Below are positions 3,641 to 11,327 of a stretch of 11,485 nt of DNA, piece by piece. The notes under the pieces are model-generated. The model saw nothing but the letters and a program-made list of their open reading frames with translations, was not told the DNA's origin and searched no databases. Source of the stretch: Bacteroidota bacterium (GTDB lineage Bacteria > Bacteroidota > Bacteroidia > Flavobacteriales > Flavobacteriaceae); the NCBI GenBank assembly GCA_022560715.1, contig JADFSQ010000023.1:1-11485 (forward strand), given 5' to 3'. The translations under genes and the position numbers were made by a program. Positions within the stretch are counted from its first letter, which is position 1. Every line of letters starts with the position of its first letter.

Positions 3641-3657
3641 CTTTATACTTACTATTT

Positions 3658-3692
3658 TTGATTTACGGTTTTTGACTTTTGATTTACTATTA
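3658..3692. repeat. Degenerate copy of the 14-bp TTGATTTACGATTT tandem repeat
   Basis: On the plus strand the rplF-rplR gap reads TTGATTTACGGTTT (3658-3671), a half unit TTGACTT (3672-3678), then TTGATTTACTATTA (3679-3692). The first differs by one base from the exact unit found twice at 11172-11199. Both sit in unusually long gaps of the same operon. Confidence 0.6.
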
Positions 3693-5570: not shown

Positions 5571-5882
5571 CTATATTACTTCATTAGATTTTTTAGCAAA
5601 TCTTACTTTTTTATCGCCTTCCATTCTATATCCAACTCGTGTTGTTTCTCCATTTGAAGTAAACAATGATAAGTTAGAAATTCGAATAGCTGCTTCTTTT
5701 TCAACGATTCCTCCTTGAGGATTTTTTGCGTCAGGTTTCATATGTTTTTTCACCATATTAACACCTTCTACAATCGCCTTATTTTTATCTTTTGAAATTT
5801 TAAGAATTTTACCTTCTTCTCCTTTATGGTCTCCAGTTATAACTCTTACTGTATCTCCCGATTTTATTTTAAGCTTTTTCAT
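5571..5882 (-). CDS. rplX: 50S ribosomal protein L24 (uL24)
   Basis: L24 is one of the first proteins to bind 23S rRNA and starts assembly of the large subunit. The 103 residues carry an N-terminal KOW motif (residues about 5-32, [20 protein letters not shown]) and the usual [13 protein letters not shown], then [18 protein letters not shown]. The start is ATG at 5882; an 89-bp repeated element occupies the gap before it, so its leader differs from those of its tightly packed neighbours. rplE follows after 2 nt. Confidence 0.97.
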
Positions 5883-5971
5883 GTGTTATATTTATTGTTT
5901 TTTAACGGTCACATGCTGTTCGCCATTAATCATTCTCTTATTTGTGAAAATTTTTAACATGCTCGTTTCAT
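5883..5971 (-). repeat. 89-bp inter-cistronic element, copy A (upstream of rplX)
   Basis: On the minus strand this begins ATGAAACGAGCATG and ends ...AACAC, immediately before the rplX start codon. It has a second copy at 6825-6913. Without gaps the two agree at 67 of 89 positions. Identical blocks include the first 14 bases and GCGAACAGCATGTG in the centre. It fills nearly the whole rplN-rplX gap, which most bacteria keep very short. What it does is unknown to me. Confidence 0.8.
5892..5960 (-). CDS. Possible 22-codon micro-ORF in element copy A
   Basis: Inside the 89-bp element an ATG opens a frame of 22 residues beginning MLKIFTNKRMINGEQHVTV and ending before TAA at 5892-5894. The matching frame in the other copy encodes 19 residues, and both share M-L-K, an internal Met, and the block EQHV. 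Substitutions between the copies are spread over all three codon positions and the C-termini differ, so there is no clear sign of selection on protein. It may be a real small protein, a leader peptide, or chance in a conserved DNA or RNA element. No Shine-Dalgarno is seen, but that is normal for Bacteroidota. Confidence 0.3.
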   Translation of the reverse strand: MLKIFTNKRMINGEQHVTVKKQ

Positions 5972-5986
5972 CTTCTTAAATCTGTA

Positions 5987-6355
5987 TTAAAGCACCTCTG
6001 GTGCTAATGATACAATTTTCATGAATTGTTTATCACGAAGTTCTCTAGCTACAGGCCCAAATACACGTGTACCTTGCATTTCTCCAGTTGGATTTAACAG
6101 CACACAAGCATTGTCATCAAATCTTATATATGAACCATCTGGTCGTCGAACTTCTTTTTTTGTGCGGATTACAACTGCTGTTGCAATCGATCCTTTTTTA
6201 ACACCACTATTAGGGGTAGCTTCTTTTACAGTAACTACAATTTTATCGCCTAAAGAAGCATACCTTCTTTTTGTACCACCCAAAACACGAATAGTTAAAA
6301 CCTCTTTCGCTCCAGTGTTATCAGCTACTATTAATCTTGATTCTTGTTGTACCAT
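5987..6355 (-). CDS. rplN: 50S ribosomal protein L14 (uL14)
   Basis: L14 binds 23S rRNA at the subunit interface, forms bridge contacts with 16S rRNA and is the docking site for the silencing factor RsfS. The 122-residue length is exact for the family. It starts [20 protein letters not shown] and contains [62 protein letters not shown] and a final [12 protein letters not shown], all textbook L14 sequence. It lies 2 nt after rpsQ. The 3' gap holds repeat copy A. Confidence 0.98.
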
Positions 6356-6357
6356 AA

Positions 6358-6615
6358 TTATTTAGCTCTTTCAATTACTTCTACTAATCTCCAACATTTA
6401 GATTTACTTATAGGTCGTGTTTCCATGATCTTTACAGTATCTCCAATATTACAGTCGTTTTTTTCGTCGTGTGCAACATATTTTTTTGTTTTTAACACGA
6501 ACTTACCATACATAGGATGTTTTACTTTTTTAACTTCAGCAACCACAATTGATTTCTGCATTTTGTTACTGGTAACAATTCCTATACGTTCTTTTCTTAA
6601 ATTTCTTTTTTCCAT
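6358..6615 (-). CDS. rpsQ: 30S ribosomal protein S17 (uS17)
   Basis: S17 is a primary 16S rRNA binder of the 5' domain with an OB fold. The 85 residues show the standard pattern: [20 protein letters not shown] (7-26), [24 protein letters not shown], and [30 protein letters not shown]. Complete, normal length. It lies 14 nt after rpmC and 2 nt before rplN in the conserved rplP-rpmC-rpsQ-rplN block. Confidence 0.98.
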
Positions 6616-6629
6616 CTTTCAGCAGAATA

Positions 6630-6824
6630 CTATTCTTGTATTTCTCTATTAGTTAACTCTGTTGCAATTCTAGCTATAGTACGTCTAATACCTTGTAACT
6701 GAATTGGGTTTTCCAGAGGTGAGATTGCATGCGACATTTTAAGGTCGGCATAACTCTTTTTAGTCTCACCAAGTTTTTCTTGTAACTCGGTTATGGATAG
6801 TTCTTTAACTTCTGATTGTTTCAT
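6630..6824 (-). CDS. rpmC: 50S ribosomal protein L29 (uL29)
   Basis: L29 is a small two-helix protein beside the peptide exit tunnel, near the docking site for signal recognition particle and trigger factor. The 64 residues match the family: MKQSEVKELSITELQEKLGE for helix 1, and the signature IRRTIARIATELTNREIQE for helix 2. The ATG at 6824 comes directly after the second copy of the 89-bp element, so rpmC is separated from rplP by 101 bases where most genomes have almost none. Confidence 0.97.
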   Translation of the reverse strand: MKQSEVKELSITELQEKLGETKKSYADLKMSHAISPLENPIQLQGIRRTIARIATELTNREIQE

Positions 6825-6913
6825 GTGTTTAAATTATGTTTTTTAGCTGAACACATGCTGTTCGCTATTAGTCATTTCCTTGAGTGATAAACTTTTTAGC
6901 ATGCTCGTTTCAT
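6825..6913 (-). repeat. 89-bp inter-cistronic element, copy B (upstream of rpmC)
   Basis: This is the second copy of the element at 5883-5971, the same length to the base, starting ATGAAACGAGCATG and ending ..AACAC just before the rpmC ATG. It is 75% identical to copy A without gaps. Differences cluster near 21-36 and 63-70 of the element. Within each copy the start (ACGAGCATG) and the middle (AACAGCATG) resemble each other, each followed by a TAAAAA tract. Confidence 0.8.
6843..6902 (-). CDS. Possible 19-codon micro-ORF in element copy B
   Basis: The frame reads MLKSLSLKEMTNSEQHVFS and stops at TAA (6843-6845). It is the positional and sequence counterpart of the 22-codon frame at 5892-5960, aligned without gaps for 17 codons with the shared block EQHV. 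I do not know the product. The case for translation is weak: conserved length, start codon and core. The case against is that bases outside the frame are equally conserved. Confidence 0.3.
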   Translation of the reverse strand: MLKSLSLKEMTNSEQHVFS

Positions 6914-10546: not shown

Positions 10547-11163
10547 TATTTTCTAATAATTACATAAGCGTTTTTTGGTCCAGGAATACACCCTTTAACC
10601 ACCAGTAGATTCTTTTCAGGAACTACTTTTAAAACTCTTAAATTTTGAACTTTTACTGTTACGCCTCCCATTCTTCCTGCCATTCGCATTCCTTTAAATA
10701 CTCTTGCAGGATATGAAGCGGCTCCAATAGAACCTGGTGCTCTTAAACGGTTATGCTGACCGTGAGTAGCTTGACCAACTCCAGCAAAACCATGACGTTT
10801 TACAACACCTTGAAATCCTTTTCCTTTTGATGTTCCAGCAACATCTACAAACTCACCTTCTGTGAAGTGCTCCACAGTAATTTCGTCACCTAATTTGTAC
10901 TCCACATCAAAACCTTTGAATTCAACGATTTTGCGTTTTACAGAAGTTCCTGCTTTTTTAGCGTGACCAAGGTCGGCTTTAGTAGCACTTTTTTCTGTCG
11001 CGTCATCGAAACCCAATTGAATGGCTTCATAGCCATCAATTTCTTTAGTTCTGACTTGGGTAACAACGCATGGTCCAGCTTTGATTACTGTACAAGGAAT
11101 ATTCTTCCCGTTTTCATCAAAAATGCTGGTCATTCCGATTTTTTTTCCTATTAACCCAGACAT
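10546..11163 (-). CDS. rplC: 50S ribosomal protein L3 (uL3)
   Basis: L3 starts large-subunit assembly and reaches the peptidyl transferase centre with a long extension. The 205 residues start [20 protein letters not shown], and the central extension (about 112-170) contains [56 protein letters not shown]. By my alignment Ala148 occupies the place of the Gln that PrmB methylates in E. coli L3 (GSIGQ there, GSIGA here), so that modification cannot occur at this position. The closing [21 protein letters not shown] is normal. Unlike its neighbours it is separated from the preceding gene by a 248-bp gap with repeats. Confidence 0.98.
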
Positions 11164-11171
11164 ATTAATTA

Positions 11172-11199
11172 TTGATTTACGATTTTTGATTTACGATTT
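11172..11199. repeat. Exact tandem duplication of TTGATTTACGATTT
   Basis: Two perfect adjacent copies of the 14-mer (11172-11185 and 11186-11199) lie 8 bases upstream of the rplC start codon, in the untranslated stretch between rpsJ and rplC. A degenerate version is present at 3658-3692. Function is unknown. Confidence 0.85.
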
Positions 11200-11327
11200 T
11201 AGAATTTATCTAAATTAAATCTCAAATCTGTTATTAATTATTTTACTATTCAGACGTTTTAAAAAACGTTTTTCAAAAATTTAGGGTCAAAATACGTTTC
11301 AACCCTGAATTGTATTTTTACCGTTTT

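Follow-up and report, generated by a model that had tools for sequence, protein, structure and literature searches.

A small, probably mobile element at the start codons of genes in the Flavobacteriaceae

Why should two genes of a single ribosomal operon each be preceded by nearly the same short block of DNA? The question is raised by the stretch analysed here (the window), 11,485 nucleotides of contig JADFSQ010000023.1 from a member of the Flavobacteriaceae, whose minus strand carries, in the order ... rplP, rpmC, rpsQ, rplN, rplX ..., genes that we take to be these from their sequences. Two repeats of 89 nt, copies A and B (Table 1), are identical without gaps at 67 of 89 positions, and the best of 20,000 simple shuffles reached 45 of 89. 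This recount upholds the original prediction of two repeats of equal length, and so do their ends, each of which lies just before the next start codon: copy A stops one base before the rplX start (5882) and copy B before that of rpmC (6824). The ATGAAA that follows each copy makes up the first two codons of rplX and rpmC; because it is common to both, the repeat extends to 95 nt, the length to which a repeat finder extended the pair (77% identity). We argue that both repeats are very probably copies of a non-autonomous, MITE-like mobile element of the Flavobacteriaceae, some 89–90 bp long, which inserts in one orientation into ATGAA(A/T), mostly at start codons.

Table 1. Features of the two element copies and their host genes in the window
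Feature	Position	Strand	Basis
Element copy A, type 1, at rplX start codon	5883..5971	-	Repeat finder, genome search, empty sites in relatives
Element copy B, type 1, at rpmC start codon	6825..6913	-	Repeat finder, genome search, base-exact empty site
Gene-side ATGAA, copy A (holds rplX start codon)	5878..5882	-	Sequence, ORFs, congener comparison
Flank-side ATGAA, copy A (place of former rplX start)	5967..5971	-	Sequence, congener comparison
Gene-side ATGAA, copy B (holds rpmC start codon)	6820..6824	-	Sequence, ORFs, congener comparison
Flank-side ATGAA, copy B (place of former rpmC start)	6909..6913	-	Sequence, congener comparison
Mini-ORF MKRAC-stop at former start, copy A	5954..5971	-	Sequence
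Mini-ORF MKRAC-stop at former start, copy B	6896..6913	-	Sequence
Conserved 3' segment, copy A (CATGTG, A-rich leader, CAC), common to subfamilies	5883..5915	-	Alignments
Conserved 3' segment, copy B	6825..6857	-	Alignments
rplX, host gene of copy A	5571..5882	-	ORF; name given from sequence
rpmC, host gene of copy B	6630..6824	-	ORF; name given from sequence

Some other features of the window may be recorded here. AT-rich direct repeats (TTTTTGATTTACG...) occupy positions 3649-3679 in the rplR-rplF gap and 11163-11207 next to the rplC start. The secY frame (858-2081) matches SecY to about residue 293 and then continues as the end of a multicopper oxidase (Pfam Cu-oxidase_2), with a pilin-like ORF (311-853) beside it; this frame is probably chimeric, joined at the low end of the contig.

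The state of the two sites before the element arrived can be read in close relatives. At rpmC, the congeners G001 (L075) and G004 (L076) have a base-exact empty site, ...GAAGCTTAATTTATTGATATT|ATGAAACAATCAG, and in the window this left flank is followed by ATGAAACGAGC ... ACAC and, after that, by ATGAAACAATCAG. The rplX site is empty in the congener G003 (L077) and in others; it is filled, with a palindrome, in the congener G002 (L074), which at rpmC carries two tandem copies, the outer one decayed. The rplX copy is missing in 28 of 29 relatives, and the rpmC copy in 24 of the 25 that could be read, the motif not having been found in the other four (L078, L092, L097 and L102). A third pair is provided by fmt, where G002 is empty (...ACTTATAAGATAAAATGAAAAATG) and the window genome has an insert at that same ATGAA. 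The upstream frame of G002, with 500 open codons, ends there on a TGA that overlaps the fmt start, and in the window genome the same frame is open over the 54 codons covered; since a copy of ATGA stands on each side of the insert, the upstream stop and the fmt start are both kept. No bases were lost at rpmC, rplX or fmt, and a gene-side ATGAA is found in 167 of the 172 copies of the wider set described below. About 89 bp have thus been inserted at a native start codon, with ATGAA left at both ends. The comparison of operons with and without the repeats, proposed at the outset, has therefore yielded exact empty sites in congeners; of the idea of a mobile element landing between cistrons, the mobility stands, but the place of landing is the start codon itself.

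Copies of the element are also dispersed well beyond this operon. In its own genome (G000; 2.38 Mb in 444 contigs, 82% complete), 43 matches to copy A were found at E<=10, and at least 28 of them span 92 or more of the 95 positions in the query, figures that are a lower bound because the best 40 of 53 candidates were scored. Several of the distant copies are closer to copy A (up to 89%) than copy B is (80%). A local duplication that copied one gap of the operon into the other might be suggested by two similar copies lying 942 bp apart, but this closer kinship with copies elsewhere argues against it, as does the fact that the rplX and rpmC sites each have their own empty state in relatives; we give that explanation practically no chance. 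When the best seven candidates at most were scored per genome, 21 of 119 genomes, the own one included, matched at E<=0.001, some of these matches being weak and partial. A scan of 84,980 species genomes with the 39-nt 3' end gave 62 matches in 60 stretches, distributed over Wocania, Winogradskyella, Lutibacter, Xanthomarina, Seonamhaeicola, Galbibacter and Arenibacter, other Flavobacteriaceae or Bacteroidetes records, a Crocinitomix MAG and one Sulfurovum MAG contig. Viral contigs held no exact match to one element pattern, and plasmids and phages none to one query of each of the two main subfamilies (types 1 and 2, see below). Wocania arenilitoris has undergone a recent burst, with 17 copies more than 93% identical to one reference. 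Tandem copies that share an ATGAA occur in the family as well. The original prediction had named two marks by which the pair could be judged, other copies in related genomes and conservation of the two gaps in close relatives: the former are abundant, but the filled gaps at rplX and rpmC are shared only with G002.

The Sulfurovum contig (NORP62) and Lutibacter NORP71 carry nearly the same crcB-like gene with a nested element (L216, L251); the element-bearing Sulfurovum contig is probably misbinned.

The subfamilies of the element have in common their first bases, ATGAAAC, and about their last 39 (CATGTGACC..T.AA.AACAATAAATATAAACACATGAA), and differ in the middle, which is ATGAAACGAGCATG in type 1, the type of the window, ATGAAACATCC in type 2 and ATGAAACCGACATG in type 3; a fourth is perhaps represented by the middle ATGAAATGAGC. 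By eye, the ends (ACGAGC/ACATCC against ...AACAC) form no inverted repeats. The type 2 stem AACATCCAT/ATGGATGTT varies with compensation: 93.3% of its cells are paired, as against 23.5-42.8% in slid controls, and this value, the 12 double-change cells and the covariation of 0.183 were each reached by none of 500 shuffles; the remaining two of the five measures did not rise above the shuffles, 75 of 500 being as high for double-change pairs and 304 of 500 for further pair types. For type 1, the alignments revealed no covarying hairpin and no common helix beyond a conserved pairing of CATGTG with CACATG. The structure alignments, of 80 and 52 copies, had been thinned to 58 and 32, of which 43 and 30 were later used.

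REP-kind palindromes (CTGCCTGCGGCAGGCAGG, TCCCGATAACTATCGGGA, CCTGCACTGAGC...) occur at or beside the element's CATG in a number of copies (among them L014, L015, L016, L019, L165, L222 and L244), as if CATG were a hotspot for a second, palindromic family. The rplX copy of G002 has a palindrome in the place of the window's CATG, and hence the two states can interchange after insertion.

As its other alternative, the original prediction had named a regulatory RNA retained ahead of rpmC and rplX. A family of attenuators, processing signals or translational controls, vertically inherited before particular genes, would account for the position exactly before start codons, for the covarying stem of type 2 and for copies that precede one gene in several species; a ddl-like gene is preceded by a copy in both G000 and G002, and one gene (M.PNTIISES... 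or alike) has a type 2 copy in four species of Winogradskyella (L195, L209, L212, L223), so that some insertions must be old and have been kept. As an origin it is nonetheless contradicted by the exact empty sites and by the lack of the rplX and rpmC copies in nearly all relatives, and it sits poorly with the many different genes that copies precede and with a near-identical burst in one species. The mobile reading is also favoured by different subfamilies preceding what is apparently the same gene in different genera: a coaD-like gene has a type 1 copy in L234 and a type 2 copy in L057, and the MKTIKGPAVFLAQF gene a type 1 copy in L221 and a type 2 copy in L196. In the window no Rfam model matched at its gathering score, looser cut-offs brought up chance-level matches only and elsewhere E was 0.95 or worse, and the single-sequence folds of the two 95-nt window copies are weak (z -1.75 and -0.22). 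An origin as a regulatory RNA is accordingly very improbable, and the mobile element is the reading that we pursue.

Where does the element insert? A profile search over the gathered loci left 172 distinct copies extending to the 3' end. They were obtained from 387 raw hits, of which only the best at each place was kept, provided that the 3' end and a further 35 nt downstream were present, and duplicated flanks were dropped; 104 of them are nearer type 1 and 68 nearer type 2, type 3 and odd copies having been assigned to the better of the two profiles. The loci are no random sample, because they were gathered by similarity. Thirteen copies run into a further copy. Among the 159 that do not, the 3' ATG begins an ORF in 146 (one of at least 60 codons in 144, and one that is open to the sequence end in two), 11 have a short ORF and two lack the 3' ATG. 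In the background (66 loci, 515 kb), gene starts account for 181 of the 474 ATGAA sites that lie outside genes (Fisher p 2e-35), by rough gene calls in which each long ORF starts at its first ATG. The nucleotide that follows ATGAA is also unevenly distributed (A 139, T 7, G 0 and C 0 at copies against A 121, T 34, G 16 and C 10 at background starts; p 4e-11). All seven copies with a gene-side ATGAAT carry a flank-side ATGAAAC, and the part common to both ends is therefore ATGAA. In the young Wocania set of 17, 12 copies stand at start codons, more than the background would give (p 0.007), and five elsewhere. From all these counts we take the DNA target to be ATGAA(A/T), with start codons favoured and other non-coding sites also used. 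The excess at start codons may in part be survivorship, since copies elsewhere can decay unseen, and it is the 17 young copies alone that bear on this point.

What the insertion does to the gene can be read from the sequence. An ORF of 4-5 codons now begins at the former start codon, and the A-rich leader ahead of the new start codon belongs to the element, so that the reading frame of the gene is left untouched. The former start opens MKRAC-stop, MKHP-stop and the like, and 134 of the 148 copies with a flank-side ATG stop within six codons; A makes up 63% of the final 24 nt ahead of the new start (146 copies), as against 45% ahead of 284 background ORFs. The leader may act as a translation initiation region, which would explain why hits in essential genes and in a ribosomal operon are tolerated. 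A secondary effect of the copies on translation is possible. It would be a further step to suppose that copies of mobile origin now regulate their genes, with translation starting at the old ATG and stopping after 4-5 codons, and with structure and the A-rich leader setting reinitiation. The frequency of early stops and the leader itself are consistent with such control, and base pairing is possible between CATGTG and the CACATG in which the start codon lies, but the mini-ORF follows automatically from the sequence of the element, and in some copies (L053, L054, L115) the flank-side ATG has decayed and the gene-side ATG has been retained. We consider this regulation rather unlikely.

The element can also mislead start-codon calls: the ORF lister began an argG-like and an msrA-like gene at a TTG inside it.

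Which enzyme moves so small an element? Its anatomy is best fitted by an IS200/IS605-like route, in which a single-strand (HUH/Y1) transposase would act in trans. In IS200/IS605 elements each end has a hairpin to which the transposase binds, and the tetranucleotide next to the left end is recognised by base pairing with a guide that lies just 5' of the hairpin foot (PMC6006769, PMC5934647). Read on the antisense strand, the order of the element is TTCAT (target) | GTG - ~24 nt - CACATG - hairpin - TTTCAT, a layout reminiscent of two cleavage sites with a guide and a hairpin between them, compressed into a single short unit; in the alignments the antisense CACATG lies 5' of the hairpin foot and could pair with CATGTG (target plus end). 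As to the hairpins, type 2 has one covarying stem and type 1 has none that is supported. A Y1-type route in trans is a real but tentative possibility.

Among the genomes searched, however, none of 44 Y1_Tnp loci (five in the own genome, 26 in five of six relatives and 13 in five of seven further genomes) had the element's ends by pattern, BLAST or eye, and the nearest likeness was a 17-base A-rich match about 1 kb from a Y1 gene (L257). In G065, a genome of one contig, no replication-strand bias was seen: a hand count that took a tandem triple as one copy and assumed base 1 to be the origin gave 22 co-directional against 18. That the element is moved by some other enzyme, whether a recombinase (IS110-type or tyrosine), a route through reverse transcription or another activity in trans, has a chance that we put close to even. 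In its favour, copies without any Y1_Tnp hit occur in G009 (rated 90% complete), in Lutibacter NORP71 (G119) and in L. oricola (G120), the latter two unrated, although loss or incompleteness could explain this absence. No autonomous copy, with ends that bracket a gene, appeared among the scanned loci or in ten stretches, mostly around lone 3' ends, from Wocania and G065; that search met only truncated, tandem, divergent or palindrome-bearing copies. IS110 genes are found in seven of 12 element-bearing genomes, but none was found in G001, G002, G003, G009 and G120, and the eight loci examined of 18 showed no element ends. Against a non-Y1 enzyme in general, the short fixed target and the hairpin of type 2 resemble IS200/IS605 rules. 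A Y2_Tnp query matched in none of ten genomes, and a control query was likewise without any match.

RAYT was rejected as the mobiliser, since the query does not follow the element: it hit 12 of the 33 entries searched and thus, with G042 and G123 taken as one genome, eight of 16 distinct element-bearing genomes and four of 16 without the element. A scan of RAYT loci met a copy in L271 alone, at some 1.2 kb from the gene, and a 14-base match in L282; six of the 13 loci were inspected, and all have other palindromes upstream. Some flavobacterial RAYT genes have palindromes on both sides (L267, L269, L276, L277), such as CCTGCAAGGTTTT...AACCTTGTAGG and CCTTCCAGAGTTT...CTCTGGAAGG. Contig C208 of the own genome (L045:382-1857) holds a 491-aa coproporphyrinogen III oxidase ORF with a RAYT-like N-terminal stretch, and the Y1 hits in frames of 507-509 aa in G124 and G125 may be the same type of ORF.

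Literature searches found no description of such an element. Non-autonomous elements are well known, and a start-codon target with replacement of the leader was not found described; we therefore regard it as a new variety of a known kind. Mobile elements are usually tolerated where they miss genes. The present one repeatedly hits the most sensitive codon of a gene, in ribosomal protein genes and in what their sequences suggest are fmt, coaD and dnaN, and its persistence there is apparently due to the replacement leader and the regenerated ATGAA. If so, it has an insertion specificity that makes hits harmless, which is directly testable, and it would be a steady source of new 5' leaders in the Flavobacteriaceae as well as a defined substrate for finding its enzyme. 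It is conceivable, if somewhat doubtful, that minimal elements of this sort home on start codons and rebuild the start that they interrupt, with an enzyme in trans that lies outside the classes tested here; this would amount to a 5'-untranslated region that can move, entering essential operons with little harm and altering the expression of genes throughout a family of bacteria.

How, finally, does the element compare with known systems? Like MITEs it is non-autonomous, short, present in many copies and divided into several subfamilies; unlike the classical (DDE) ones it has neither terminal inverted repeats nor a variable target duplication, but a fixed ATGAA at both ends. HEARO/IscB-type elements insert beside ATGA or GTGA. 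The present element shares an ATGA-type insertion site with them, but it has no internal ORF, and the Rfam scans gave no HEARO match. The REP and REPIN sequences moved by RAYT (TnpAREP) are likewise small, dispersed and non-coding, and the type 2 hairpin and a movement that, if it occurs at all, would be in trans are further points of likeness. A REP is defined by a GT[AG]G head before its palindrome (PMC2817692), whereas the subfamilies here begin with ATGAAAC and have no such head; nor, in the loci scanned, do they flank RAYT genes, of which the six inspected have other palindromes upstream. From IS200/IS605 (IS608, ISDra2) the element differs in measuring about 89 bp in all, with apparently one hairpin instead of two, in its ATGAA target, which is usually a start codon, in showing no replication-strand bias in G065, and in that no tnpA was found with its ends. 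With these and their possible non-autonomous derivatives it nonetheless shares a short fixed target, the lack of terminal inverted repeats, precise insertion, a hairpin near one end (in type 2) and a candidate guide at the foot of that hairpin.
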